Assembly (NCBI GenBank): GCA_930367215.1 | Contig: OV884056.1 | Span: 318,648,709 to 318,712,708 of the forward strand | Direction of reading: 5' to 3' | Source of the DNA: Pollenia angustigena | Taxonomy: Eukaryota; Arthropoda; Insecta; Diptera; Polleniidae | DNA: 64,000 nucleotides | In this document: positions 14,697 through 52,489 of the stretch, piece after piece | How positions within the stretch are numbered: the first letter of the stretch is position 1 | Layout: each line of letters opens with the position of its first letter | The notes under the pieces: model-generated | The model's database searches: none | Told to the model about the DNA's origin: nothing | The model's input: the letters and a program-made list of their open reading frames with translations, nothing else | Made by a program: the position numbers and the translations under genes

Positions 14697-15166
14697 AAAT
14701 TTTATTCTCAATTACAAAACCCATTTAACGTCAAAATATCTTTGTCCCCTAAATATAATACATTTACTATATTAAAATATAAGTTTAATTTTCATGACCC
14801 AAGTGCCAAACTTTTTTTATAAAGATATGTATATTCCATAAATTTTTATTTATAAAAAATCTTTTTATTGACATCACTCATTTGTTTATTTCACAAACAA
14901 ATACACATTATGTTAGAAAACAAACAATAGGTATGTAGGCGATAAGTCTATAACCTTTCTTTTTGTTTATCAGCCTATAATGCGTATAAATAAATGTATT
15001 GTTTGCAAGGTGACAAGTGTAAACAATGACCTGATATGACCAACTTGACTGTCAGTTTTCCTTATATTTTATGTAAACATCAAATCTACAGCTAATAGAT
15101 TTTTGGCTGCTTAACCAAAAAAATTACAAGTTCATCAAAAGAAATCACACCTTAAAAAAAATCGCA
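14697..15166. other. 5' flank of the second IR
   Basis: About 470 bp with the tail of the split MITE and then AT-rich DNA. The promoter of the IR at 15167 should lie here; no specific element was recognised. Confidence 0.4.
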
Positions 15167-17047
15167 ATGGAAACCGCTAGAAAATTTGGAACGATGATAA
15201 TTCTAATATTAATACAAATCAAAATTTTAAAAGTTGAAAGTTTTCAAATCAGCAACAAGTCTCTTAATATAATTCACGAACAAACATTAAATATAAACTG
15301 CATTCGAGTAGATGATATCTTAAACATTGACGAAATCGTCTTTAGGCTATTGCTAAACACAAAAATTCCCATGTTGATTTCAAGCAAAAGTACCAGTGAA
15401 AGCCAATTACAAACTTCTTTATGCCCGAATTTATTCGTGCAATTACATTCCACTGAAACCTTAGGAACAGTACTTGCAAATTTCGTCACTTACACAGGCA
15501 CAATGCTTATTTTATTAAGCCAAAAAATTGATTGGTACAATATAACCCAATTTAGCGAAAACTATTGGAACCTAAAAAGAATATACAAAGTCTTTTATAT
15601 TTCGGGTGAACATTTAAAGTTTTATCATCCGTTCATCATTGAGAATGATAAATATGGTGCTATGGTTGATGCCAGAGATCACAATATAAAAAACATATTT
15701 AAAAATTTACACGGCTATCCAATGCGTGTGTACGTATTCGATGCGGTATTTTCGGAAGTAAATGCAAAACAAGATGCATTTAATGTAACCAGTGTAAAAG
15801 GGGTAGATGCGAAAGCGGCGTACTTATTGGAAAAAATATTTAATTTTACAATGCAACTTCAATGGCCAGATGATAATTTCTTTGGGTATATAATTTACAT
15901 TTATATGTACATTATCTGAATGATTCTGATTTAAATAATTTTTATTTTTAGAGCTCGTTTGGAAAATGGTTCCTTTAATGGTGCCCTAGGTCGCTTGATT
16001 CGTTATGAAACCGATATAGTGATGACTGGTTTTTTCATTAAAGATTATCTTACACGAGATTTTCATTTTTCAGTTCCAGTTTATATGGACAAGCTCTGCT
16101 GTTATGTTATAAAATCGAAACGTATACCACAATCGTTTTTACCACTGTATGCTGTTAAAGAAAATCTTTGGCTTGCTTATATATCTGTAGGATTATTTTC
16201 ATCTTTTGTGTGGATGTTACTAAGACGCGTAAACGTATGCATAGACAGATATGCAAGAAAACAAATGACTTCCAGAAGAACACACTCTTCTTCACTACGT
16301 CTTCAATACTTTAGCGTTTTTACAGACACTTGGGTACTGTGGGCTCGCATGTCAATAGTACGTTTTCCACCCTACAATTCCGAAAGAATATTTGCAATAT
16401 CTCTGTGTTTAGTGAGTGTTATTATAGGAGCAATTTTAGAATCAAGTTTGGCAACAGTTTATATAAAGCCCCATTACTACAAGGACATCAACACTCTGGA
16501 GGAGTTAGAAAAGGCGAATTTAAAAATTTTGATTAAACACGCCGCCATGCGCGATGATTTATTTAGAGACCAAAATTCAAGCTTACACAACATTTTGGAT
16601 CAACGTGTAATGCTAGTTGGTGAGCCAGAAGAACGTTTGATTAGTACTATGTCTAAGCATGGAGGCTTTGTAGCAGTTACTCGCGAATCTTCGTTTCTTA
16701 TTGCAGATATATATTATTTCATTACAAAAAAAGTACACATAATACCCGAGTGCCCTAAAACTTATCACATTGCTTATTTATTTACAAAAAACTCTCCCTA
16801 TGAAGAATATTTTAATGAAGCTTTCCTACAGTTTTTAGCTGCAGGCCTTATAGAGCAATGGATTGATCAAACTAGACATCAAGCACAATGTCAAATTCAT
16901 AACTTTGAAGACTACATAGCTGAAAGTAGTTACCAATGGAAAGCTTTTCAAATTAGTGATTTACAATTGGCTTTTTATGTTTTAATATTGGGAAATATTT
17001 GCGCAGGTTTGTTATTTTTTGCTGAATATATCATGTTAAGCACTTAA
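15167..17047 (+). CDS. Divergent ionotropic receptor (IR), two exons
   Basis: Exons 15167-15885 and 15952-17047 give 604 aa. The 66 bp intron (TTTGG|GTATAT, TTTTTAG|AGCTCG) splits the same Gly codon as in the upstream IR. Start ATG at 15167 (CGCAATGG) precedes a hydrophobic leader (MIILILIQIKIL). S1 has GVDAKAAYLLEKIFNFTMQL; S1 continues with DIVMTGFFIKDYLTRDFHFS, where an Arg is kept close to the iGluR ligand-Arg position. M1 is about 312-331, the pore loop contains DTWVLWARMSIVRFPP, M2 is about 385-404 (ESSLATVYIKP), and M3 (about 580-604) ends the protein. As in other IRs this should be a membrane cation channel tuned to a chemical ligand, assembled with a co-receptor. It is in tandem with the 73-5718 gene, 9.4 kb apart and probably separately transcribed. 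Confidence 0.92.
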
Positions 17048-30482: not shown

Positions 30483-30800
30483 TCATTGAAGCATTTTGTG
30501 ATAAACAATATTTTTCGTTTTGTTGCCAGGAGCGATAATGAACAAAGAGGATGGCTTTCCGACACGGGAACATGCGACATAGAGTTGACCGTGTGAAAAA
30601 CAGTCGTTCCCCACATTTAGTCCACAAACACTCAATGATTGCCCTTGGGATTTGTGGATTGTCATGGCGAATGCGAGACGAATTGGACATTGGATTCGTT
30701 TAAACTCGAATGGCATATCGGTTAGGATCATTGGAATTCTCGGAATGAGAACTTCCTCTCCTTTAAACTTTCCTTTTAGCACTCCATACAAAATGTATGA
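30483..30800 (-). pseudogene. Helitron Rep-Hel helicase, C-terminal remnant
   Basis: The minus-strand frame has LIPRIPMILTDMPFEFKRIQ, then PIRLAFAMTIHKSQGQSL and GQLYVACSRVG, the late motifs (IV-VI) of the PIF1-like helicase of eukaryotic Helitrons. The helicase unwinds DNA during rolling-circle transposition. Only about 100 residues remain of a protein normally over 1000 aa; the rolling-circle nuclease and Walker A region are missing, probably lost before the hAT insertion at 30857 just upstream of it. Confidence 0.85.
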
Positions 30801-31972
30801 GAAAATGAATTTTCTTTATAATTTCTTTTTTATGGAATATTTTAGACAGTTTTTGCCAGGGTTTAAAAATTAGTAAATAGTTTTTTTTCTTCATACCGAA
30901 AACGACAGTAAATATTCAAAACTAAAATATTTAAAGGTATTCATATCGCAAAAATATTCATAATTTACTAACAACATTGTAGTAATATTCAAAAATATTT
31001 AACCAGTGGTAACTTTATAATATAAAATGCGCAAAATATTAAATATTTCGCCGTATAAATATATTTTATATCGTAACTTTAACATATTTTTTGTCACCAT
31101 AAATATTAAATGTTTTGTTTCTACAATATCAATATATTCCTACCACACATTACAAACTGCCGCAGTATATGCGAAATGTACGAATATAAATAACATAACA
31201 AAACAAAATATGCCGTCTTGTTGATCATCGACTGCCAAAATATGCGACACAAAATATGCGACTATTACACACGACATATTTAAATATTTTAGAGTAAATA
31301 GTAAACATATTATTAGTCGAAAAATAAACTAATAATAGTCACAATATGAAGAAAAAAATTTTTTTTTGTGTGTACATACAAAAAAAAAAAAAAAAAAAAA
31401 AATAAAAAGGGAAAAATTTAAAATAAGAAAATCTTTGAATGTGAGTATGTGAAGGAAGAAGTAAATAATTATGTTTGATGGTTAATTTATTGAAAAAAGG
31501 CAAAATATGGTTGAAAGGTGAGTTTTATAGTTTGAGTGCAAAAATATAAAAAATATTGAAAAGTTAACTAATATTTTAAGAAAATATATACATATGTACT
31601 TAGTTTGTATTTATAATAATATTTAATTTATAAACAGCCATTAAAAGAATATAGGGAGTGTTACCTATATCAAAGACAAAATTAAATTGGTGTTTGGACT
31701 AGTTGTTCAAAAATAGAGTAAAGGTACAAAAGTGCGATTGTGTTTTGAGAAATTTATTTACAACAGACAAAGTATCTTTTATAAGGACAAACATTTTTAT
31801 GCGTGGGTGTGTAGATCATAGTTTTATGACGTAAGCATTTTATTTTTAGCTTAGCTCATTTAATTGTTGATGATAATGGATGAATTCAAATTAGAACAAC
31901 AAATCGCAATCTTGTAATAGAAGCTCAAAAAAAAGGATGTTGTGTAAATGTAGGTAGGAGGCTGCTTATATA

Positions 31973-32718
31973 CCCAGCAAACAATATGAGTCCTAAAAGA
32001 GTCTTTTAGGACTCCTTTTTATGAGCAAAACGCTCATAAAAAAGCTCCTAAAACCCTCAGATATGAGCGTGTTTTCCTATGAAACCGTCAAAAAATTTTG
32101 TACTGAATATGAGCGTTTTAGGACTTCTAAATTTAACGATTTGTATGGTAAATTGTGAGCCTTTTTGCTCACAAATCAATCATAACAACCTCTTAAGAGA
32201 GTCATAAAAGAGGGATTTTGGAGCCAAAAAAGAGTTTTATAAAAGTGTTTCTTTTTCTTGAAATTAGGGTATTCATTTTATATGTAAATTTGTGCTTTTT
32301 AGCTTTTAATGGAAAAGTTTTATTAATATATGTTTTGTGCATGGAAATCATAATCATTTTAAACAAATTTCAGCGGAAAAAAACCTACTTTTTGCACAAT
32401 TTCTCAAAGATTTTATCAAAACCACAACCGAACAGCGCACAATTATCACAATAATGACAGACAAACGCAAAATATAGAAATTATCAAGAAAAAGAAAACA
32501 AACTACCGTTGCCCCTCAGAAAACCCTCATAAATAAGAGTTTTCTAGGAGTGTGCTCCTTAATTGCTCATAAAAATGAGTCTTTTCGGAGTCCTGAATTC
32601 TACAGGCTCCGAATTCAATCAGAATTGCTCATAAATTAGGAGGGTAATCATAAAATCCTCAAGAAAAGGAATCTTTTAAGAGTCATATTTAGAAGCGCTC
32701 CGAAAATTGTTTGGTGGG
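31973..32718. mobile_element. TA-flanked MITE in the left arm
   Basis: CCCAGCAAACAAT and ATTGTTTGGTGGG are the ends, TA lies on both sides. 746 bp, rich in ATGAGTCCTAAAAGAGTC-like motifs in both directions. The other arm carries the same insertion at the same position with the same length. Confidence 0.8.
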
Positions 32719-32894
32719 TATGATCTTCTAGAGAAAAGAACATTTAAAGAAGTGATCTGTTGTAAAGACTATGCATATATATATGTATGTATGTATGTAT
32801 GTATATATAATTGTTAGCGACAAAGTAAACTTAGAAATTTGATATTGTGTTTTGTGTTATACAAGTTGATTTAAAAAAAAAAAAAAAAATTTAT

Positions 32895-33270
32895 GACTTT
32901 TCTTGTTTTTTATAAGTATGTAATTTGGAAAAGAAATGTTTTTTCAGACTATTGTTGTTTTTTTATTTGCGCCTATCATAAATATATTTTTTAGGTAAAA
33001 CACTTTTGTTTGCTTATATATAGCAATAATTATGACGCCAACAATAACGAAACCAAAATTTTCATGCAAGTAGCGATCCTTTTTTATGAACATTTTTTGC
33101 CAATTTTACACACTTGTGACCTTTTTATTTGTTGTTGCATATACGTATGACAAACAATACCTTGTGGAATCACAACAACAAATGTATGCAAATTTATGAT
33201 CTATTTTTTTTAGCGGAAAATAAAGGGTTATTTATTTTTTCACTTGTTATTTTTACAACAGGTATAGGAA
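32895..33270. repeat. Direct duplication, copy 1 (in left arm)
   Basis: Shares with 33360-33745 the blocks AATTATGACGCCAACA, TTTTCATGCAAGTAGCGATC, CAATTTTACACACTTGTGAC and TAGCGGAAAATAAAGGGTTA in the same order. The copies differ by substitutions and small indels, so this duplication is older than the inverted arms. Confidence 0.8.
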
Positions 33271-33359
33271 AAAAAGTATGAATAATTATGACGCCAATAT
33301 TTACGCAGAAAAAGAATTGTACACACCATCTGAGACAAGTGATGCGCATATGTTGCATT

Positions 33360-33745
33360 TCTTGTTTTTTTTTATAAGTAGGTATGTTATTTGGAAAAGA
33401 AACGCTTTTTCAGAGTAGTGTTGTTTTTTTTATTTGGACCAATCATAAATATTTTTTAGGTAAAACACTTTTGTTTTCTATATGCACTTGCGTAGACAAT
33501 AATTATGACGCCAACATTAACGAAACCCAAATTTTCATGCAAGTAGCGATCCTTTTTTATGAATTTTTTTTGCCAATTTTACACACTTGTGACCTTTTTA
33601 TTTGTTGTTGCATATACATATGACAAACAAGTGCAAGAATACCATGTGGAATCACAACAACAAATGTATGCAAATTTATGATCTATTTTTTAGCGGAAAA
33701 TAAAGGGTTATTTACTTGTTCACTTGTTTTTTTACATAAGGAAAA
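33360..33745. repeat. Direct duplication, copy 2 (5' of the transposase)
   Basis: Colinear with 32895-33270 and lies outside the inverted arm, just upstream of the transposase start. It may hold part of the transposase promoter; no TATA box was pinned down. Confidence 0.8.
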
Positions 33746-33854
33746 GGAAACGAGTGTATAAATTAGGTCGCACAATCTGACAAAACGATAGTTGTTTAAT
33801 TTGATTTTTAACGTTTGGTCTCACGAAAATAGTTTTTACAAGTAATAAATAATA

Positions 33855-36200
33855 ATGGAAAAAATATATGATTATTTTGATGTGTGTGATATTGAGGACA
33901 AAGTTTTATGCAAAATATGCAAAAAAACATTAAATAATAACAGAAGCTATAATTTAAAGTCACATTTACTTAAAATGCATAAGATTGAAATAGATCTTAA
34001 AAAATCCATAATAAAGTCCAAAAATGTAAAAGCATTTGTTTCAGTTAATCGACATGAAATAATAAAATCGTATATAGGACTGGTCACTGAAAATGGATTA
34101 GCGTTTGATATTTTAAACAGCAATAACATGCAAAATATTTTGAAACCTATATGTAGTGCATTAAAAACAAACAGCGGGCAAATGTTTTCTTTAAACTCGG
34201 ACAATGCCAAAAAAATTTTATGTGATGTTGTGACTAAACTTCGTGGTTTAATTCAAAGTGAACTGTCAATTAAATTATTTTCTATTAAAATTGATAGTGC
34301 GACTCGATTAGAAAGGAGCATTTTTGGAATCAGTTTACAATACTGCAATAATGGAAATATTATTTCTAGAGTAATTGGAATGATCGAGTTAAAAGGAGCT
34401 GGCTCAACTAAGTCTAAAAATTTGGCAACAGAAATAATCAAAACTTTAAATAAATATAATTTAAACTTACAACAGGTAATTGCAGTGACTTCTGACAATG
34501 GAGCGAACATGTTGAAAACAACGTCATTATTGTCCCAGTGCCTTTCTAAATATGAAGATGACTTTTTGAATAATAGCGACTACCGAAATGTTTTAGATGA
34601 AATGGATAATGACAACGATATTGATTTAGGCGATGTAACAATATGCAGGTGTGCTGCGCATTCGGCACAGTTAGTTGCAGTTGATGTTATTAAAAATTCA
34701 AGTATCAACCAGTTCATTATACTGTGTAGAAATTTTACAAAGTTTTTAAGAAAACCGACGAATGGATTTCGACATTTATTTGATTTAAATCATGTGCGTG
34801 TACCACAAATCGATTGTCCAACACGTTGGGGATCTACTTTTAAAATGATCAACGACTTAAAAACGGCAAAATCATTTATTGAGCACCCAGATATGCCTGC
34901 CTATACTGCTGAAGATGATTATTTTGAAGCTAACGACCAATTTTGGAAGAAGGTTGACGATTTTTTAGTAGTTTTTAGCCCAATTAATGATATATTAACC
35001 AAATTTCAAGAGGAGACTTTAAATTATAGCGACTTTTGTGCGAATTGGCTTAAATGCAAATTATTAATAAAACAAATTGTCGTAAAATCTACTGAAAATA
35101 CCTTCACAAAGATATTAGGAGACTTAACTCTAACGTATTTAGAAAAACGATCGATTACACTAAATAAGAATGATATACTCATTTCATGTTTGTACTTTGA
35201 TCCACGATTTCATAATAGGTTGTCTACAAACGAAAAAGAAAGGGCAATTACATTTCTCAAAAAGGTGTGGGATAGATTTGTGTCACTTAATAAGGAGTAT
35301 GGAGTTAAAGTATCTAATACATCAGATGACAAAAACATTGAAGAAGACGATGACATATTAACAGCCTTCTTAAGGCAAGATATAATGGTACAAAACGAGT
35401 CTGTTAATGTATATACAAGAATTGAAAGGCTAAAATTACCATTTTTAAGAAGTGATACTTGTGTTCTAAGTTATTGGAGGGATAGAAAAGCTGCAGATGA
35501 AGAGCTTTATATAATATCTAATATTATTTTTGGTGTTCCCCCAACACAGGTAAATTTTAAGAAAATTAACTTATTTATAAATCATTATATTTGTATATCC
35601 ATACATACATTATATATGTACCTACGTTAGCAAATTTAAAGAACATTCATATGATGAACTCGTCGTTCTCTTAATTTTTGTGTTCGAAAAAAAAATCTGA
35701 ATTTATTTGTTTTTGCATTTATAGTGCCCATTGAAAAGTTAAAAAAATATATTTACGGCCGATTTCAGCTAATTCAGTTAAAACTAACTATTACTTTAAT
35801 TTTCAGTTAACAATATGTTTTTGACAGTTATAACTGATAGTAAATTATAACTGAGCTTGGTGAAATTGGCCGGTTATATATAAACATAAAATTTTGCTAA
35901 ACGTAATTAATGGCTTGTGTGTACCTGTATATGTATCAAATTAGCATGTGCACATGTTCATATATGTATGTATGTATGTATATATCTATTGCTTTCTAAT
36001 TTTATTACTCTAATATATTTTAAACAATATTACGTACATATATCTTAAAGGTAACAATAGAACGAGCTTTCTCATCTTTAAGAGTCATTCTAAGCGAGTC
36101 CAGAAATCGTCTAAGTTCGGAAACACTTGAAAATATTCTTTTGGTAAAACTAAATCCCGCTCTTTTAGATGAATCAATAGGGGAAATCAACTATCTTTAA
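33855..36200 (+). CDS. hAT transposase, apparently intact, two exons
   Basis: Exon 1 33855-35549 and exon 2 36051-36200 (CACAG|GTAAAT, CTTAAAG|GTAACA) encode 614 aa, the normal hobo/Hermes-class length. An N-terminal BED zinc finger has C19, C22, H37 and H42. The RNase H-like core has D147 (IKIDSATRLERSIFG) and D214 (VTSDNGANML), then CRCAAHS with H269, W325 (CPTRWGSTF), a helical insertion, and the catalytic E569 in VTIERAFSSLR, with the dimerisation segment ENILLVKLNPALL at the C-terminus. It binds the TIRs and excises and inserts the element via hairpin chemistry in the nucleus. No stop or frameshift interrupts it, so the element may be autonomous. The intron falls directly before the catalytic Glu motif, so unspliced mRNA yields a catalytically dead protein of 591 aa, a possible control point. 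Confidence 0.92.
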
Positions 36201-36578
36201 AACAACAATTACGTAGCAAATTTAAAAAAAAAAAATGATTAAAAGAACATGAAGTAAATAAAAAGAAAAATAGTACCTAATTGTATTGTTATTAATTGGT
36301 AAAAAAAACTTTTTTATCTAATATATTAATTATAACTATTATTTTTAAGCAAATGTTAAAAACATATAGGTATATATATACATATTTAAAATAATTTTTT
36401 TGCGGTAAGTTCTTATATTAAAATTTTGTAAAATATTAAAGCGACCTTCAGACTAACACTTTGCTTATTAGCTGCATAATTGAAAAAAATAAATAATTTT
36501 AGAACAATAATGACTTAAAATTATAAACGAAAACCAACTGAAAAATAGAAAATTTTTATATGAAAATAACAATTAATG

Positions 36579-36690
36579 CCTGTATTCACAAAAAATTTTT
36601 AAATTTAATAAAGGTTTAAAGAACAAATTTACTATGAAAATTTTCCTTAATATACGTTTGTTAAATTTAATAATCGTTTGTGAATACGGG
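36579..36690. repeat. Palindromic MITE, 112 bp
   Basis: CCTGTATTCACAAA and TTTGTGAATACGGG are the ends; AAATTTAATA and its inverse continue the arms. Half of a related element occurs at about 38130-38200. Confidence 0.6.
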
Positions 36691-36754
36691 GGTTAAACTT
36701 TATTACAGTCCAGAAATTATAGCTAATTTATTTATTTATTTTTATTAATATGAT

Positions 36755-36988
36755 CCCAATAAGCACTCAAAAATAAAATAAAATTTAGCTGGAAATAAAC
36801 TTGAATTCAAACGTATTTTAAAATGCTATTCAAATTTCAAAATATTTACTTGATTTCACATTCCTCTTTTACTGGAGAATGCTTTTGATATAAAGTGTGA
36901 CAAAGTATATCTCAACCCTTGAAACTTGAAATTCAAAGTTGAATATCAATTGTTTTGCACTTGATTTCCAGAAAATTTGCTTATTGGG
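36755..36988. mobile_element. MITE with CCCAATAAGC ends, 234 bp
   Basis: CCCAATAAGC and GCTTATTGGG termini as in 29284-29825; GAT/ATC outside extends the pairing. Interior AT-rich, no ORF. Confidence 0.7.
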
Positions 36989-37063
36989 ATCGAACTTAAT
37001 GTGACATTTAACAATATTTCTAGTAATTTTTTTGCCCGTAGGCATCTTGATAGTATCTCTGAT

Positions 37064-37774
37064 TACACAGAAAAAAATAATTTTCATATTTGAATACGAA
37101 AATCGCATATTTGATAAAAATTTTTTTGAATTTTCTGCGATGACGATTTTTGCAGTATTGATAATAAAGTTTGTAGGTATAGTTATTGAATTTTTAGTCA
37201 ACAACAAAGTTTTTTGAATCAATAAAAAAAGTTGTTGCCCAAAATAATTTTTTTCAACAAAATGTTTACGTGATTTGTTAAAATAAATTGTTGGAAATGT
37301 TGAATAAATCAAACAAAATGTTTATCGAATCTTAATTTATTTATTAACTATGATGTGCTTAATTCCCAGGCTTTATGTTTTGATAAATACACTAAGATTT
37401 ATTATGGTGGGATAAGCTAGTTCCTATGCGCATTTAGCTGATTGCTTAGGCCAGATTATCATTATCCAAAGATTGTGGCTAAACTAAATGATTTATACAA
37501 ATATAACTGTAAAGCGAATGAGAATTATGAGCTTTAGAAAATAGACAAAAGTTGTAAAAATACTGGCTTTACTTTGATTCAAATATTTTTTTTATTGAAT
37601 ATGAAAAAATATTTAATAATTTTATTATTAAATATGTTTTTTTTGAGTGCTATTTTGCAAAGTGTAAACATGATAAATTTTTTCATTAAATCAAATAAAA
37701 AGTTTGTTGACCTAAAATTTTATTTTTAACAAACTGTGGTGTTAAATATTTTTTGAGATATTTTTTTCTGTGTA
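37064..37774. mobile_element. MITE with TACACAGAAAAAAATA ends, 711 bp
   Basis: TACACAGAAAAAAATA at the left is repeated in inverse (TATTTTTTTCTGTGTA) at the right. The right 550 bp match 3695-4252 in the IR intron. The 147-codon minus-strand ORF overlapping it has no motif and runs through the terminus, so it is not a gene. No clear target duplication. Confidence 0.7.
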
Positions 37775-38758
37775 CTCAAAAAGAAACTACAATTTAACAT
37801 TCGAAAATCTGTTGAAAGTTCGTTCATTATTGTTTTTACAAAAGCAGATTTTTGCTAAACAACCTGAATATATATACAGAAGATTAACTTTTTCAAGATC
37901 TAACAGAGGAAAAAATATAAACTCCATTCGGTACCGTAGCCTTATGTCGTTAGACATTTTTACGTTTCTACAATTCGGTTGTGGAACAGACTACCCCCCA
38001 TATTCATTTCATTAGCAATGCAAACAGTTTTAAATCTACCATTTTTGTTAAAATTTTTTTGGTAAATTATTTTAATAACTTTTGTATTTGTCATTAGTCA
38101 AAAATTTTTTTTAAATTGAATTTTTAACAACGTATTCATAAACGATTATTGAATAAAAAAAATTTTCATAGAAAATTTGATATGTAAACCTTTTTAAATT
38201 TAAACTATTTTTATGCGTCGAGTTTTTCGGGTCCCAATTAGCGACGCGAACTGAAACGACAAAACTTCGAAATCACAGAAATTTAAAAAAGATGCAACTT
38301 CGAAAACGACGCAAACCGAAGCGACGTATTGGTGTACAGGCATAAATCTTTTATTTAATATTCATTAATACTGATTTTTTATATTTGTTGACTTATTTGT
38401 ATTAATTATTATTTATTTATATGTTTTATTTTCACTTTAATTTATTGTGCCACAAATGTATAACTTTATATCTACGGTACTGTAATATAAGACACCGTTC
38501 TTGTTGTATTGTCTTATCTAATAAAGGATCAATATCACCAACACTTTGTGAATTGTATGTAGGTAAAAATAGATTTCTCAAAAAACAAACGTTTCGCTTA
38601 ATAACGAGAGACAGGATATGCTCAGGTTCAGTTTTATTTAATAATTTGATTACATTTATGTGCGCTGTTTTATATTCTATTATATTAAAAATTTTATAAA
38701 GCACAATCAAACAATTCCTGCCAAAAAGAATATTCACATAGGTATGCATACAACATAT
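37775..38758. other. Inner hAT sequence without a recognised gene
   Basis: A minus-strand 105-codon ORF (38432-38749) has no identifiable motif. A GC-richer patch at 38215-38340 repeats CGACGC/GAAACGAC and TTCGAAA motifs. Origin of this segment unknown; it could be captured DNA. Confidence 0.4.
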
Positions 38759-39453
38759 GAGGGGTATATTTGCTCAAAGTATATTCATATTTATGTTTTG
38801 TATATCATGCTATTCAGTAAATAAGAATATGATGAAGATGTGACGCAAGTTTCAACCAAATCGATATAGTGGTTTGCTGGCAATTATAATAATAAAATTG
38901 GAGATTGCTGTGTTTGCTCTAATCAAATCAAAAAGTCAGCTGTCGTAATACCACCGCCTGCTTATCAATTGGCCTTAACACATACCTTTTTATTTTTTCT
39001 AAATTCCTTTCCATTTGTTGGTGTCTCTTGCCTTTTTTTCTTTATTGATTTGGAGGAACTTATTAACAACTTAGCTCCATAATTACGACCAATGACAAAG
39101 TTATAAAATTAACAATATAATTAACTGTTTCATATAAAAGAGAAATTGTTATTTTTTCATTTTTTTTAGTTTTGTTTTGCAAAAAAGAAACAGAATAAAA
39201 AAATAGCGTGCATTTTTGAAAATAGTTGAGAGAAAAAGAGCTCAACAAACTGTGATCATTGCAAAAACGACAATCTCCAATCTCCAAAAGTATGTTCAAC
39301 TCTTAATTTTTGAACATACTTTTTTATGGGATAAATGTGTTTCTAGTAATGTAATATTCACTAATTGGAAGCATTCATTAAATACAACTAAGAGGTATTA
39401 TAAGTTACGTTTGTAAAATAGTTGACATTGCAGTCTTTGCAACTATACCCCTC
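38759..39453. mobile_element. TIR element at the inner edge of the right arm
   Basis: GAGGGGTATA and TATACCCCTC bound 695 bp, with ATAT on both sides as a possible target duplication. It abuts the inner end of the right arm exactly at CATATG, so it may have inserted there or marks the recombination point that made the arm. Confidence 0.6.
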
Positions 39454-41809
39454 ATATGTGCATCACTTGCCTCAGATGGTGTGTACAATTCTTTTTCTGC
39501 GTAAATATTGGCGTCATAATTATTCATACTTTTTTTCCTATACCTGTTGTAAAAATAACAAGTGAAAAAATAAATAACCCTTTATTTTCCGCTAAAAAAA
39601 ATAGATCATAAATTTGCATACATTTGTTGTTGTGATTCCACAAGGTATTGTTTGTCATACGTATATGCAACAACAAATAAAAAGGTCACAAGTGTGTAAA
39701 ATTGGCAAAAAATGTTCATAAAAAAGGATCGCTACTTGCATGAAAATTTTGGTTTCGTTATTGTTGGCGTCATAATTATTGCTATATATAAGCAAACAAA
39801 AGTGTTTTACCTAAAAAATATATTTATGATAGGCGCAAATAAAAAAACAACAATAGTCTGAAAAAACATTTCTTTTCCAAATTACATACTTATAAAAAAC
39901 AAGAAAAGTCATAAATTTTTTTTTTTTTTTTTTAAATCAACTTGTATAACACAAAACACAATATCAAATTTCTAAGTTTACTTTGTCGCTAACAATTATA
40001 TATACATACATACATACATACATATATATATGCATAGTCTTTACAACAGATCACTTCTTTAAATGTTCTTTTCTCTAGAAGATCATACCCACCAAACAAT
40101 TTTCGGAGCGCTCCTAAATATGACTCTTAAAAGATTCCTTTTCTTGAGGATTTTATGATTACCCTCCTAATTTATGAGCAATTCTGATTGAATTCGGAGC
40201 CTGTAGAATTCAGGACTCCGAAAAGACTCATTTTTATGAGCAATTAAGGAGCACACTCCTAGAAAACTCTTATTTATGAGGGTTTTCTGAGGGGCAACGG
40301 TAGCTTGTTTTCTTTTTCTTGATAATTTCTATATTTTGCGTTTGTCTGTCATTATTGTGATAATTGTGCGCTGTTCGGTTGTGGTTTTGATAAAATCTTT
40401 GAGAAATTGTGCAAAAAGTAGGTTTTTTTCCGCTGAAATTTGTTTAAAATGATTATGATTTCCATGCACAAAACATATATTAATAAAACTTTTCCATTAA
40501 AAGCTAAAAAGCACAAATTTACATATAAAATGAATACCCTAATTTCAAGAAAAAGAAACACTTTTATAAAACTCTTTTTTGGCTCCAAAATCCCTCTTTT
40601 ATGACTCTTTTAAGAGGTTGTTATGATTGATTTGTGAGCAAAAAGGCTCACAATTTACCATACAAATCGTTAAATTTAGAAGTCCTAAAACGCTCATATT
40701 CAGTACAAAATTTTTTGACGGTTTCATAGGAAAACACGCTCATATCTGAGGGTTTTAGGAGCTTTTTTATGAGCGTTTTGCTCATAAAAAGGAGTCCTAA
40801 AAGACTCTTTTAGGACTCATATTGTTTGCTGGGTATATAAGCAGCCTCCTACCTACATTTACATAACATCCTTTTTTTTGAGCTTCTATTACAAGATTGC
40901 GATTTGTTGTTCTAATTTGAATTCATCCATTATCATCAACAATTAAATGAGCTAAGCTAAAAATAAAATGCTTACGTCATAAAACTATGATCTACACACC
41001 CACGCATAAAAATGTTTGTCCTTATAAAAGATACTTTGTCTGTTGTAAATAAATTTCTCAAAACACAATCGCACTTTTGTACCTTTACTCTATTTTTGAA
41101 CAACTAGTCCAAACACCAATTTAATTTTGTCTTTGATATAGGTAACACTCCCTATATTCTTTTAATGGCTGTTTATAAATTAAATATTATTATAAATACA
41201 AACTAAGTACATATGTATATATTTTCTTAAAATATTAGTTAACTTTTCAATATTTTTTATATTTTTGCACTCAAACTATAAAACTCACCTTTCAACCATA
41301 TTTTGCCTTTTTTCAATAAATTAACCATCAAACATAATTATTTACTTCTTCCTTCACATACTCACATTCAAAGATTTTCTTATTTTAAATTTTTCCCTTT
41401 TTATTTTTTTTTTTTTTTGTATGTACACACAAAAAAAAATTTTTTTCTTCATATTGTGACTATTATTAGTTTATTTTTCGACTAATAATATGTTTACTAT
41501 TTACTCTAAAATATTTAAATATGTCGTGTGTAATAGTCGCATATTTTGTGTCGCATATTTTGGCAGTCGATGATCAACAAGACGGCATATTTTGTTTTGT
41601 TATGTTATTTATATTCGTACATTTCGCATATACTGCGGCAGTTTGTAATGTGTGGTAGGAATATATTGATATTGTAGAAACAAAACATTTAATATTTATG
41701 GTGACAAAAAATATGTTAAAGTTACGATATAAAATATATTTATACGGCGAAATATTTAATATTTTGCGCATTGTAATATTAAAAAGTTACCACTGGTTAA
41801 ATATTTTTG
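39454..41809. repeat. Right arm of the long inverted repeat in the hAT
   Basis: Inverse of 30990-33352. Includes the mirrored TATG microsatellite near 40000 and poly(T) near 41405. It carries only copy 1 of the direct duplication, not copy 2, which shows that the duplicated block ended between them. Confidence 0.9.
40088..40833. mobile_element. TA-flanked MITE in the right arm
   Basis: Mirror of 31973-32718: CCCACCAAACAAT to ATTGTTTGCTGGG, 746 bp, TA on both sides. Confidence 0.8.
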
Positions 41810-41969
41810 TGTAACACTAGAAATTATATTAATACAGCGATTCATTTAAATATATTACGATGGTGGATTATTTAATATTTTTAGATTTTCTGTCAGTTTG
41901 TGTTTAAAATTATGCATATTTATGACTAATATATTAGTATTTTTAAACCCTGGTTTTTGCTAACAGGTC

Positions 41970-42515: not shown

Positions 42516-43076
42516 TTCAACATTTTTATTTTTTGAATTTATTCTACTATGAGCTAAATTTCAGTTAAATGTGTATTTTATAAAGCTTTTTTGTAATAGT
42601 CCAATACCTTCATTTTTCAAAAATGACTTTATACACTACCAGACTATTATATTGTATTTTCTTGTTACATTTTACCTTAGCTTTCCTTTGGACAGCAATG
42701 AAGTACATTGTATGTACAGAAACATTTACAATTATTAGACACCAGCAGAATGTAATGCATTTTCTGGCCCGCTACGGCCTTCGTCAGCATTCTTTGTGTC
42801 ACACTTGATAGTGATACTTTATAAATTGAATGTATTTAACTCAACAATTTTAACAAATAGAAACTGGGAATTATTAATATTACTAATCGTAATTTAAGAC
42901 AAAACAAAACGCAAATTGTGTCAAATGTAGAGTCAGTCACATATGAAATTGCCTTCTTACAAAAAACGACGATAGAAGTTTAAACGCCCAATTTTATGCG
43001 TTTAAAGATGGTTTATATGTTTAGTGATTTATAGATTTGTTGGTTTAAACACATTTTAAGAACACACCCTAAGAAA
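42516..43076. other. Intergenic, nothing recognised
   Basis: No gene. The 61-codon ORF at 42623 is featureless. Confidence 0.45.
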
Positions 43077-43633
43077 GCACTGTTATCTATGCTTAAGTTT
43101 ATGGAGGGCGCGATTCTAGTTCAAAGATAATGGCAAAAGAATTAGCGGTTCGAACGTGAAAAAAACAGAAGTAGTTTTTGTGGCCATGTACAAAAAGGCG
43201 TAATTCAGCAAAACCTGGCACAATTTTTTAGTCAAACTACTTTTAGAATTTTACGTAGCAATGTAACATTAAAATATCTTAGTTTGATTCCAAAATCTTC
43301 TGTATTTTCCTTTTTTTAAGCCAACAACATTTCGAACGTGAAATTTTTCCATAATAATTTAACTGAATAATGATTAAAACAACATAAAAATTTTTTTTGG
43401 AATAATTTTTGTCAAATATCACCTCATTTAAGAAAGATAAATATTAAAGAAAACATACAAATAAACATTCTCACATATAAAAAATTACGTTTGCACAACT
43501 TTGCAGTCTGATTGTTCATCTAAGTGAACAAATTAATGGGTAAATTTATAAAATTAGGAAAATCTAAATATTTCTCTATAACAATATCGTAAAATAATCA
43601 GATTTAAATAACTTTTAAATTTTCGGCCACGGT
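43077..43633. repeat. Dispersed repeat, direct copy at 51852-52489
   Basis: AGCACTGTTATCTATGCT to TTTTAAATTTTCGG(C/T)CACGG is colinear with 51852-52489. This copy lacks about 90 bp present in the other (the GGGTCGATACGTGACATTTC and GTTAATCCGAATAGCATATT blocks). Non-coding, family unknown. Confidence 0.8.
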
Positions 43634-44714: not shown

Positions 44715-45920
44715 ATGAATACCTCTTTTTTAAAACAAAAAACAAAAAATAACATTAAAATAACAAACAGTAAGGACACGCGGACGGGATTGACCAGGAT
44801 CAATCGGACGTCACTCTCTGTGAGGTGGGGAGTACCCTCTCGACTGTTCATGAGAATACTGTCCACAACTTGTTCGGCAGGAAGCAGTGGAGGATGGGCC
44901 AAGCGCCCCTCCACGAGATTTTAAGAACTCCAGAACTCCAGAAGGAGGAGAAAAAGGAGAAGGCGCAGAACGGAACAAGGAGTTCTCTGGCGTATCTGGA
45001 TAAGATGTCGAAGAGAGATCCTTCAACGTTCTCCGCGAGGGATAGGCACCTTCTGAGAAGGCACCGACAAAGCGTCGTCAAATTCGAAAGAATTTACGGC
45101 CCTGTCAGTAACGTGCTTGGTTGGCCCTATCCTTGGAGAAAGCAGGTGGATGAAGTCGCCGACCCGGACAATACTCAAAAGAGTACAGGGCCGTTGGCAT
45201 CGTCAACCTGCAGTGGAGAGATAGAGAAAGGAGGGGTTGCCCCGATGACCAAAGCGCTCATGTCTTCGGAACGAGCTGCGGAGGATAAGGGGGCGATACC
45301 CAAGAAGGAAAGCAAAGTGGCTAAGGCAGCGGACACGAGAAAGAAGGCTGGTAATCCTCCGTCCGATTCCACTAGTGGCCCTCGTAGAGAGGCCAATAGG
45401 GGAAAAGGTGAGGACAGGAACAAGCCTTCTAAACTAGTCGTGCCAAAGTCATCGAGCTCAGTGAAGAGGGTTGGTACATCTCCGGCTGAAGCTCCTAATG
45501 GCTCTAATAAGACCATTAAGAGGATCAGATCAGATCTGATCAGCCTACTTCATCGAAAAAAAGATTGAAGAAGTGGACGAGCCTGGAAAGTCATCTGCAA
45601 GTGGCTTTCATCGATCGGAATGATCCGGATGTGGAGGCTAGGCTTATCGACGAGCTGGCAGCATTTAAGGGCAAAGAGGAGGACGTATCCTTCAATGGTG
45701 CGGACTGGGTTAAGGGAGTGAAGGTTGTCAATTGTGGTAACAATACTTCTTTGGAATTCTTAAGGACTACAATTGACAAATGCAGCGACATTAACCCGGG
45801 GCAAGGTTTGAAGTCATACAAGCCTCCGATTTGCCAATTAGGTCCATAGTGACAGTACGGATTCCACCACCCGTACTTCCGGTGGAAACTACCAGAACAA
45901 AAGGCTCATTACCGACCAAT
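44715..45920 (+). pseudogene. LINE ORF1 (RNA-binding protein), frameshifted
   Basis: Starts at ATG 44715 (MNTSFLKQKTKN). The frame moves between about 44825 and 44920 into one with a Lys/Glu-rich region (QKEEKKEKAQNG, SKRDPSTFSARDRHLL), then a low-complexity Ser/Lys linker up to 45568, then shifts again into FIDRNDPDVEARLIDEL and FNGADWVKGVKVVNC, the conserved C-terminal (DUF4780-like) block of fly LINE ORF1s. After a stop near 45849 a third frame has VRIPPPVLPVET. ORF1 proteins coat the element RNA. At least two frameshifts break it here. Confidence 0.75.
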
Positions 45921-45929
45921 GGAGGCTGG

Positions 45930-48900
45930 TGACCTCACTGGTGTGTAAGGAAAATACCGGCAGGGCAAATAAACCTGCACCATTGTGAAGCAGCCTCAGT
46001 CGAAATAGCAACTTTCCTCACTAGCACTAGGACGGACGTAGCCCTAATCCAAGAACCTTGGATTAATAAAAATAAGGTTTGCAGTTTAGGGGTTGCGGGA
46101 TACACTCCGTTTGTCCCGTCCACAGAGGAGAAGGTAAGAACGTGTATATTAGCGAGGAATGAATTGAATTTTCTCATCTCTCATTCTTTCAGGTGCGGTG
46201 ACTTGACCGTAGTAAATGGAGAAGCCAAAGGTAAGCACACTCTTACACTGACTTTGGTGTATATGCCGTACGAGGCATTGGACCCACCTGGCACGGAGGT
46301 GCGGGAACTGACGGCATATGCAAGAAGGAGGGGTGCAATCCTAGTATTGGGCTGCGATGCCGATGCTCATCATAGCCAATGGGGGAGTGCAGACATAAAC
46401 AAAAGGGGTGAGTTAATGTTTGATTTTATAACTACTAACAATCGTATTATCTGTAATATGGGTAACACGCAGACGTTCAGAAATAAAGATAGGCAGGCAG
46501 TGATAGATCTGATATTAGTAAACCGTGACGAGCAACTTTTTGTTGATTGGAGGGTGGCAACGGACTGTACATTTTCAGACCATAGCCGTATTACCTTCAC
46601 ATGAATTTTGAATTTAGACCCACCTGGGGTTGCTCCATTTAGGAACCCGAGGGGGACAAAATGGGACTCCTTTAAGGAAAGAGTCCGAATTGGGATGGCG
46701 CAAAGCGCCTTGGGCGACTTGCTGCCGACTGATCTGGAGGGTGTTGTGAACCAGTTTACTCATCTTCTAAGGGAAAGCTATGAGCAGTCCTGCCCGGTTA
46801 CATTACCGGGTAGGCGTAAACAGCCCAAATGGTGGACCAGGGAACTTCACGTTCAAAGGTCTACGGTTAGGAAACAGTTTAACAGGGCCAAGCTTACCAA
46901 AGCACCAGAGGATTGGAACAATCACAGGGTGCAGTTCAACAGGTATAAGGCAGATCTGAAGAGGGCAAAGCGACTATCATGGAGGCAATTTTGTGCATCC
47001 ATTGATAATGTCAACGAGTTGTCAATATTCCGACGGATTTTATCCAAGGACCCTAAGGCCCTTGGTTACATCCAAAGGATTGACGACTCATGGACTGAGT
47101 CTAGCTTTGAGACCCTAACCTTACTGATGGAGACGCACTTTCCCGGGTGCAGGCAAACCGTAGGTACGGACGACGGTCAATGGGACGTGATGTCCATGAC
47201 ATCGGATTATACTTCCGCCTGCGTCGAGGAAATGGTCACAAGGGAGAAGCTAGCGTGGGCGGTCAATTCTTTCGACCCATATAAATCACCGGGTCCGGAT
47301 GGCATTCTTCCGGCCATGCTCTGCAACATTCCAGACGATGCATCATTTCTGCTGGTGAACATATTCAAGAAGTGCCTCAGTAGGAGGTATCTGCCTAGGG
47401 GGTGGAGAGAGGTTAGGGTGATTTTTATACCCAAGGCTGGTAAAGCAGGCCACTCGAAACCGGGGGATTTTAGACCTATTAGTTTGTCTTCATTCTTGTT
47501 GAAGACTCTTGAGAGGCTAATAGATTTCTATCTCAGGAGTAATATTGAGACCCGCCTTACTAGCAACGCTCAACATGCTTACCTGAAGGGTAAATCTGTT
47601 GAGAGCGCGTTACATGAGGTGGTGGGTTGTATTGAGCACGGTCTGAGGCATAAGGAATATACTCTCGCCGCGTTTCTGGATATAGAGGGAGCCTTTAATA
47701 ACATTAGGATTGAGGCGATTAGAGATTCTTTGTTGGAGTTGGGAGTTGAGGACTTTCTGGTAGAGTGGATAATCTGCATTCTTGGCAGTAGGATTATAAA
47801 CTCGAGCCTGGGGGATCATGTGATAAGGAGGAGGGTTACCAGGGGGACACCACAAGGGGGGGTTCTATCACCTCTATTGTGGTTGCTTGCGGTTAACGGG
47901 ATTCTTGGGTCATTTGATTCCATGGGCAGGAAAGTTGTTGCCTATGCGGACGACATAGTTCTGCTGGTCAGGGGAAAATTTCTGTCCACGATCGGGGAAA
48001 TTATGCAGGTGATGCTAGGCGAACTCTCGGCATGGGCAAAGGATAGTGGACTGGGTGTTAACCCTGCGAAGACTGAGCTGGTGCTATTTACCATAAGGTA
48101 TAGGATAGAGGGATTTAGGGGGCCAGTGCTAGATGGCGTCGAGTTGCCTCTATCGGACGGAGCAAAGTACTTGGGTAACTTTCTGGACTGCAAACTGTCT
48201 CGGAAGAGAAATACTCAGGAGAGGATGAGAAGGGGACTCAATGCATACTACACATGCAGGAACTCCATTGGAAAGAACTGGGGTCTGAGGCCTGATATGG
48301 TAAACTGGATTTACATATCGGTTGTTAGGCCTATACTTACCTATGGATGCACTGTTTGGTGGGGTGCGTTGGGAGTGGATAGCTATAGGAAGATGCTCAG
48401 CAAGGTTCAAAGAAGTGCATCTCTTGGCATCACAGGCGCAAGGAGAAGCACTCCGCAGGCAGCGCTGGACATCCTTCCATATCTATCCCCTATTGAGCAT
48501 TATGTGAGGAGTGTGGCAGCTAGGAAGTTACTTAGACTTTACGAGTCTTCTCTAGTTAGACCTAGGCGGCATGATCACACTAGAATTTTGTACGAGATGG
48601 GTCTGCTTGATCAGGGTATTATTCTCGAGGGAATTTCGGATCATAAGACTATAACCCTGGACTTCGGTGCGACACCACCAGTGGAGTTCCCGGATAGGGA
48701 AATTTGGAGTGGATCCAATGGACTGTTTGAGGGGTGGGCAGTATTTACGGATGGATCCAAGATGGAAACCGGCACTGGTGCCGGTGTTTATATCGCGGAC
48801 ACCGAGGTGAGAAGGTCGTTCAGACTTCCCGATGAGTGCAGTGTCTTTCAGGCTGAGATCCTAGCGATCTGGAGGGCTATGGAGGAAATACTGGAACACA

Positions 48901-49583
48901 TCGTGGGTGGTTCTGTGGTGACAATTTACGTCGATAGACAGGCGGCCCTGAGGGCATTGACAAATTATACGGTGCGATCGTGCCTGGTCGCTCGGTGTAG
49001 GAATGCTCTTGGTGAACTCATGGAAGCATTCAATGTAAGGCTGTGTTGGGTACCTGGACACTGCATGGTTGGTGGAAATGAGGGGGCTGACGAGCTCGCG
49101 AGAGGGGGTTCGAATCTGGACTTAGCGGTAAGGGACAGGGGGGTTAAGCCCCCCCTATGTTACTACTATGGGGTGATACGGGAGAAATTCCATGATAACG
49201 TTAACCTGTCCTGGAGGGACAGAACGGATTGCAGGGTGTCCAGGGCACTATGGCCAAGATTGGACGCGGGGGCAACCAGGGTTCTACTGGGATTGGATAG
49301 GGGTAGTCTTAGAACGCTTGTAGGGTTCTTGACGGGTCATTGTCCTGTTAGGGCTTTTGCGGGCAGATGGGACAACGCCATACCGGACTTCTTCGATGAT
49401 TCAGAGGAGCTGGAGACGATCGAGCATGTACTGTGCCATTGTCCCAGGATGCAGGGTCTCAGGCAGAAGTGGCTAGGAGATAGGTTTCACGGCGAACTGG
49501 GGTGCATCGCTGGATGTAGTCCGGCGGATCTACAGGGGTTTGTCAGGGCAATAGTGCGGTTGTTTCTGTTGAGGGGACTGTAG
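45930..49583 (+). pseudogene. LINE ORF2 (EN-RT-RNase H), one in-frame stop
   Basis: One frame from about 45930 to 49583 is interrupted only by TGA at 46602-46604. The apurinic-type endonuclease shows INLHHCEAAS, ALIQEPW, GCDADAHHSQWGS and SDHSRI. Reverse transcriptase follows with SPGPDGILPAM, RGTPQGGVLSPLLW and the catalytic YADDIVLL (about 47943). RNase H has VFTDGSKMETG, AEILAIWRAME and VPGHCMVGGNEGADELA, and a Cys/His motif (CHCPRMQ) closes the protein. It performs target-primed reverse transcription. About 1210 codons, complete apart from the stop, so the copy is young but inactive. Confidence 0.9.
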
Positions 49584-51655: not shown

Positions 51656-51851
51656 ACAAAGAACAATTTAAGTTCCGCAAAAAACTTGACGTTAAGGAGT
51701 GACTCACAATTAACATCGTGGATTATTGTTTTACTACCCTTTATTATATATGGGTAACTCCAAAGTGTTGAACGTGACGGTCGTACGCATCAAAAATGCA
51801 TAAACATCTTAAACAACAAATATTTTAACGTTCTTTTAACCCTTAAATTAA

Positions 51852-52489
51852 AGCACTGTTATCTATGCTAAAGTTTATGGAGGGCGCGATTCTAGGTCAA
51901 AGATAATGGCAAAAGAAGTAGCGGTTCGAACGTGAGAAAAACAGAAGTAGTTTTTGTGGACATGTATAAAAAGGCGTAATTCAGCGAAACCTGGCACAGT
52001 TTTTTAGTCAAACTACTTTCAGAATTTTACGTAGCAATGTAACATTAAAATGTGTTTGGTTTGATTCCAAAATCTTCTTTATATTTTTTTATTTAAGCCA
52101 AAATCTGGGTCGATACGTGACATTTCGAAATTTTTTCCATAATAATTAAACTGAATAATGATTAAAACAAAATAAGAATTTACCGTTAATCCGAATAGCA
52201 TATTTCTCTTTGAACTCTTCCTTAGATTACAGACTATGAAAGAAAATTTTTTGGGAAAATTTTTTTTATCAAATATCACCTCTTTTAATGAAGATAATAT
52301 TAAAAAAACAAACAATAAAACATTCTCACAAATAAGAAATTACGTTTGCACAACTTTGCATTCTGATTGTTCATCTAAGTGAACAAATTTATGGGTAAAT
52401 TTATAAAATTAGTAAAATCTAAATATTTATCTATAACAATATCGTAAAATAATCAGCTTTTAATAACTTTTAAATTTTCGGTCACGGTT
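51852..52489. repeat. Dispersed repeat, longer copy of 43077-43633
   Basis: Same order and orientation as 43077-43633, about 640 bp, with two extra internal blocks. It lies inside the composite hAT, so this copy was carried in or inserted later. Confidence 0.8.

Follow-up and report, generated by a model that had tools for sequence, protein, structure and literature searches.

A fold-back hAT transposon family of Pollenia angustigena with probable arm exchange within elements and a core in both orientations

Galileo, a transposon of the P superfamily in Drosophila, is the closest precedent for the family described here: it has long inverted arms around a transposase core, and its arms, 18 bp to 1.25 kb long in D. 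mojavensis, lengthen through the recruitment of inner DNA (PMC3573991, PMC2775673). The two arms of one copy, here called mates, are alike, with values of 0.0018 for 1L/1R and 0.0071 for 2L/2R in Newton copies of D. buzzatii. Copying between the terminal inverted repeats has been proposed by the authors, and no functional transposase was found in D. mojavensis, as far as the available text of the two papers tells (PMC3573991, PMC2775673). For Hermes, the available part of one report describes that donors with LE/LE ends retain little activity and those with RE/RE ends none (PMC10368747). Here we describe a hAT element in a 64,000-nucleotide stretch of the fly Pollenia angustigena (contig OV884056.1, positions 318,648,709 to 318,712,708), hereafter the window, together with its relatives in the same genome. 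We consider it likely that this is a fold-back hAT of a young family, in which the arms exchange sequence within single elements and the core lies in both orientations between fixed left (L) and right (R) tips. The parts of the element, including its target-site duplication (TSD) and a insert resembling a miniature inverted-repeat transposable element (MITE), are as follows.

30857-41952: hAT element, 11,096 bp, termini CAGGGTTTAAAAAT
30849-30856 (left copy) and 41953-41960 (right copy): TSD GTTTTTGC, 8 bp, both copies identical
30857-30976, plus strand: left tip (L), 120 bp, lying outside the arms
30977-33352, plus strand: left arm, 2376 bp, from BLAST of the element against itself
31973-32718: MITE-like insert in the left arm, 746 bp, TA-flanked, ends CCCAGCAAACAAT / CCCACCAAACAAT
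33358-33750, plus strand: tandem copy (87%) of inner left arm 32899-33271, upstream of the transposase
33855-35549, plus strand: transposase exon 1, open, with a BED zinc finger at its start
36051-36200, plus strand: transposase exon 2, open, with the hAT C-terminal dimerisation motif
36201-39452, plus strand: remaining core from transposase to right arm, 3.25 kb, including smaller repeats
38754-39458: repeat-ended stretch of about 705 bp, ends CATATGAGGGGTATA; the right arm starts at its CATATG end
39453-41822, minus strand: right arm, 2370 bp, reverse complement of the left arm
40088-40833: right-arm copy of the 746-bp insert, inverted, at the same base of the arm as the left copy
41823-41952, minus strand: right tip (R), 130 bp, lying outside the arms

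Comparison of the element with itself by BLAST gave one main inverted pair, 30977-33352 with 39453-41822, which is 99.03% identical over 2378 columns with 13 mismatches and 3 gap openings. These inverted repeats stop short of the element ends, leaving the unlike tips of 120 and 130 bp outside the arms. The first 14 bp form a terminal inverted repeat, the same at both ends, and beyond it no likeness between L and R was detected by alignment (score 52.5; mean 51.2 and maximum 77 in 500 shuffles). CATATG, where the right arm stops, is also read at the inner end of the left arm, a small overlap that may be of the kind left by template switching. A sequence-only reading of the window had proposed the same termini, extent and perfect 8-bp TSD, all of which were borne out. 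Its arms are indeed near-identical reverse complements, but its arm borders did not hold, as the BLAST pair begins about 13 bp further out. The transposase gene, which that reading described as uninterrupted, is open but not a single stretch: it consists of two exons, which encode 614 amino acids if joined at a predicted GT-AG intron.

The assignment to the hAT superfamily is supported by the 8-bp TSD, the short terminal inverted repeats, and the presence of both a BED finger and a dimerisation region. The BED finger in exon 1 scored above the cut-off (PF02892, E 1.2e-06). The hAT dimerisation domain PF05699, searched on exon 2 alone, gave E 0.0004 and 20.6 bits, slightly below the cut-off of 21.4, and scores 38.7 bits in the nearest named protein, from Lucilia cuprina, which is 67% identical across 69% of the query. 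Neither a THAP-type (P) nor a Mutator-like (MULE) transposase domain was matched in Pfam at E 0.001 in the window transposase. Exon 1 had no sequence-level match among solved structures, hence no alignment to a solved hAT was obtained; candidate catalytic D, D and E residues can be read in the translation. The window element is potentially an autonomous fold-back hAT.

Searches of the assembly to which the window belongs (1.37 Gb in 31 contigs) yielded 130 L-tip, 128 R-tip and 853 left-arm candidates, of which 40 each were scored, the latter giving 91 arm matches. The scored L tips are 94–100% and the scored R tips 96–100% identical. A scored R tip lies downstream within 25 kb of 37 of the 40 scored L tips, at a distance of 2.8–19.8 kb and always on the same strand (37/37), leaving three L and three R tips without a partner. 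No L-L or R-R pair was found within 25 kb among these 40 + 40 tips. Left-arm matches often occur as plus/minus partners 2.5–20 kb apart. Twelve relatives, picked because both arms had matched, were fetched and read together with the window copy. Inverted arms were found in all 13 elements (96.5–99.4% identical in the longest BLAST piece), with this piece ranging from 0.95 kb in C6_10 up to 4.37 kb in C2_93a; in C2_93a and C2_93b the arms extend to include 1.6 kb of core. A perfect 8-bp TSD flanks 12 of the 13, the exception being C5_91, whose R tip has lost its outer portion. The family is young and multi-copy. In 13/13 copies, 12 of them preselected, long inverted repeats account for much of the element; since the relatives were selected for paired arms, the frequency of arm loss is not measurable from them. 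The fold-back hAT architecture put forward in the sequence-only reading is supported, and the possibility that the right arm is unique scrambled DNA is ruled out, since relatives carry the right arm as well. The arm-to-arm copying, core inversion, constant tip asymmetry and palindromic sister subfamily described below came to light through the genome, beyond the reach of that reading. A further family copy at C6:10.76 Mb, 13.8 kb long with a perfect TSD, has several rearranged arm and transposase pieces inside.

Copying between the arms of one element is indicated by the 746-bp insert: each window arm has it at the same TA, and the two copies differ at 3/746 bases. The best other genome copy of the insert is 97% identical (40 of 333 candidates scored). 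The empty insert site was read on both strands in 12/12 relatives and is absent in the window copy; a first, smaller inspection had read it in 5/6 loci. Furthermore, substitutions (indels aside) present in exactly two of the 26 arms were counted; each arm contributed a single match per part, longer than 850 bases in the outer and 400 bases in the inner part. In 37 of 42 cases the two arms were mates (17/17 in the outer and 20/25 in the inner part), compared with means of 1.3 and 1.9 and maxima of 13 and 12 under random pairing. This indicates that variants and the 746-bp insert have been transferred between the arms of single elements. Alternatively, the arms might stem from one old inverted duplication and be alike through recent spread of the family, with no arm-to-arm exchange. 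The high outer-arm identity between elements (0.992) would fit such a history, and so would two near-tip sites, which lie 40 and 49 bp into the arm and distinguish L from R in 12/13 elements (C1_248 has the R state in both arms). An old duplication does not account for a private insert at the same base of both window arms, nor for the predominance of mates among the two-arm variants, and we regard it as very improbable.

The orientation of the core was determined from 40 of 84 family transposase matches, after second fragments had been set aside along with relatives at or below 57% identity. A transposase match lies inside 24 of the 37 tip pairs, adjoining L in 14 and R in 10 (p = 0.54 against equal numbers). 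Adding the second fragments left these counts unchanged and revealed no mixed element. Five L-side and three R-side cases belong to a derivative with a deletion (query residues 27-194 or 27-204); without it, nine L-side cases stand against seven. Pieces of the remaining core (36201-39452) were found in 10/12 relatives beyond short matches, the larger ones being 92–99% identical, in both orientations. The core is thus present, as read from these matches, both ways round between the same two tips. In a tree of 15 cores there were six orientation changes, against 5.3 under shuffled labels. Two well-supported sister pairs have opposite core orientations, namely window/C5_178 (0.96) and C1_111/C4_66 (0.91), and one well-supported pair, C1_142 and C1_1311, has the same orientation. 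C5_178, the closest relative of the window copy, has an open transposase exon 1 in a reversed core.

Inversion and arm sharing could also come mostly from ectopic recombination between copies, or from a right arm remade several times. Galileo in Drosophila does recombine between copies, according to the available part of the report (PMC2775673), and five sites are common to the non-mate arms C1_1311_R and C5_238_L. Both of these arms, however, face the transposase, so that the five sites may travel with the core, and shared variants are far commoner in mates than in non-mates. A simple crossover between inserted copies would moreover swap flanks, whereas 12/13 elements have perfect TSDs; exchange may still have taken place before the last transposition. 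Overall, ectopic exchange is an unlikely main source of the pattern.

Exchange within elements, between fixed tips, is nonetheless an interpretation on which several observations weigh. Exchange, flipping and repair as their cause are all read from sequence patterns. The five variants shared by C1_1311_R and C5_238_L are inner-arm variants of non-mates. Mean arm identity, taken from matches selected in the same way as for the two-arm variants, is 0.9951 (outer) and 0.9919 (inner) within elements and 0.9922 and 0.9833 between them, and several elements have a non-mate arm that is equally close as, or closer than, the mate; the arms differ little because the family is very young. How often the core flipped is uncertain, as the core tree has low support and an almost star-like shape. 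The tips beyond the 40 of 130 and 40 of 128 scored may hold young L-L or R-R elements. Finally, among the scored arm candidates, both arms were matched in 14 of the 37 tip pairs, one arm in nine and none in 14.

A protein search revealed a sister subfamily (B, the window family being A), with transposases 56–57% identical that occur as divergent pairs at five loci. At C2:155.96 Mb the pair forms an 11.95-kb palindrome (99.7%) around a spacer of 69 bp, with unlike tips outside, 12,107 bp in total. At the four other loci the ends and the centre alone were read, and both borders and spacer are the same; all five thus have the same borders and different flanks. The first kind of tip was found at 5/5 loci and the second at 4/5, the stretch at C5:114 being too short to reach it, and an 8-bp TSD is present at 4/4 loci with both tips read. 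At one of the five (C5:225) the spacer is reversed relative to the tips. A probe taken just 3' of the first exon gave 17 candidates, all scored: ten near-identical copies within the five palindromes and seven weaker matches, including a single full-length one (96%) at C4:66.83 Mb. At 35 other loci, as judged from 40 scored candidates out of 335, a small fold-back repeat has a centre similar to the spacer region (L060-L063). This likeness suggests that the palindrome may have begun with a hairpin. In subfamily A the arm duplicates the 5' side of the gene, whereas in B the gene itself lies in the arm, pointing outward. Given these different arm contents, A and B probably acquired their structures independently.

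Genome assembly is known to have difficulty with large palindromes, and the present analysis rests on assembled sequence. It could thus be argued that the palindromes are assembly or library artefacts. Against this, sister palindromes recur at five loci with the same borders in different flanks, and many loci of the window family combine element-specific arm variants with a common outer border and unlike tips. Since so many independent loci each have a TSD and arm variants of their own, an artefact is extremely unlikely.

More distant relatives were also found. L064 (43% identity) is a plain 4.0 kb hAT with an 8-bp TSD, CTGATTTC, that has no long arms, only 104–150 bp of inverted similarity (75–81%) near its ends. 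For L065, whose ends could not be located, no inverted match exceeded 71 bp. Three distant, stop-free hAT transposase matches (32–33% identity) lie within 31 kb at G000:C3:54154558-54184798 on the minus strand.

For the window family, we propose that double-strand breaks would arise as the element's own transposase cuts and pastes, and that homologous repair of these breaks, or cruciform-prone replication, would switch between the two arms. Switch tracts without crossover would make the arms identical, whereas a crossover between the arms, or two switches, would reverse the core. Tracts running beyond the inner end of an arm would give longer arms, the palindromic sister subfamily being the extreme. 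As both arms carry the same transposase-upstream DNA, the gene would have the same upstream sequence in either core orientation. Copying of arm over arm would spread freely up to the tips, and an element with equalised tips would stop multiplying. Tips would thus escape homogenisation because equal-ended elements would hardly transpose, so that only L/R copies multiply. If the need for unlike ends known from Hermes is valid here, it would explain why the arms evolve in concert and the tips do not.

With somewhat less confidence than in the interpretation above, we favour the view that this is a living hAT lineage of freely interchanging inversion isomers. The arms would evolve in concert within each element while the core reverses again and again. 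The border at which conversion of the arm gives way to the unconverted tip would mark the DNA needed for left/right recognition by the transposase. The process would have been completed in the sister lineage, as 12 kb two-gene palindromes that would still transpose because their tips stay different.

It may also be speculated that the arms persist because they are themselves functional, either as a source of hairpin or antisense RNA for small-RNA control or as carriers of multiple transposase-binding sites. The arms are by construction inverted repeats around the gene, and AAATATG is found five times within the arm's outermost 369 bp, against 0.4 in a first-order model. Such repeats might act as subterminal binding repeats. 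However, AAATATG was one of three motifs tested following k-mer counts on the same sequence, and binding-site repeats need no kilobase arms. The hairpin, promoter, antisense and small-RNA roles are putative, as is the siRNA/piRNA trigger that the sequence-only reading saw in possible long dsRNA from the arms. Maintenance of the arms by such functions is doubtful.

In the surroundings of the element, a 110-amino-acid reading lies immediately to its left (30483-30815, minus strand), with a weak Pfam match to Herpes_Helicase below the cut-off. We presume that it is like the end of a Pif1/Helitron-type helicase; joining the element flanks did not lengthen it. Open reading frames at 44774-49580 (plus strand), two of them with endonuclease, reverse transcriptase and RNase H domains, are probably a non-long-terminal-repeat retrotransposon. 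Two open reading frames lie side by side at 15077-17044 (plus strand) and possibly represent an ionotropic receptor gene, the second one matching a ligand-gated channel weakly, below the cut-off. The window also contains a tandem array at 3020-3627 (five copies of a 121-bp unit, 89% matches), a repeat shared at 84% identity by 37224-37775, in the element core, and 3698-4245, and a direct repeat about 0.6 kb long (43074-43633 and 51850-52488), which aligns in two pieces at 88–90% identity.

The family joins a fold-back architecture within the hAT superfamily to an open transposase gene, and its sequences appear to record how such arms are made and kept, with the sister palindrome as the extreme case. 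Its copies, with both core orientations and unlike tips, form a natural experiment bearing on the need for different hAT ends and on how repair within a transposon reshapes it. Long inverted arms may furthermore provoke breaks and rearrangements of host chromosomes, as has been proposed for Galileo and Foldback in the available text (PMC2775673).

Among hAT elements, Hermes has a BED finger, an 8-bp TSD and dissimilar left and right ends like the window element, and likewise the hAT dimerisation motif, but it is about 3 kb long with 17-bp terminal repeats, and no long arms are described in the available part of the report (PMC10368747). No autonomous fold-back hAT appeared among the listed titles and abstract openings of open-access papers, preprints excluded. 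An Atlantic cod repeat, gadMor-hAT-1784, has a hAT-derived palindromic consensus; it differs in being a MITE at inversion breakpoints, without a transposase of its own or a flipping core as far as described there (PMC12368964).

Outside hAT, Foldback-type elements such as FB and Tetris also have long inverted arms around a middle part. According to the available text most of them are assigned to Mutator and Tetris is without a transposase (PMC4079207), whereas the window element has a hAT transposase gene. For the MtPH-A6-4 PIF/Harbinger elements of Medicago, the internal region has been reported to be inverted while the ends stay constant (PMC2213677), so that internal inversion has a precedent. 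There, in the text available, the inversion was ascribed to internal tandem repeats rather than long inverted arms, and one inverted element is named. Galileo belongs to another superfamily and has a 7-bp TSD (PMC2775673), against 8 bp here. As far as its available descriptions go, its repeats are terminal, whereas unlike tips of 120–130 bp lie outside the arms of the window family, and middle segments lying opposite ways are described for a pair of copies at the breakpoints of chromosomal inversions, not as repeated flipping between constant L and R tips. Homogenised long arms in themselves already have a precedent in the long, dynamic arms and alike mates of Galileo. What does appear new, as far as open-access listings show, is the combination of a hAT element and an open gene with unlike outer tips, recurrent inversion of the core and a two-gene palindrome.

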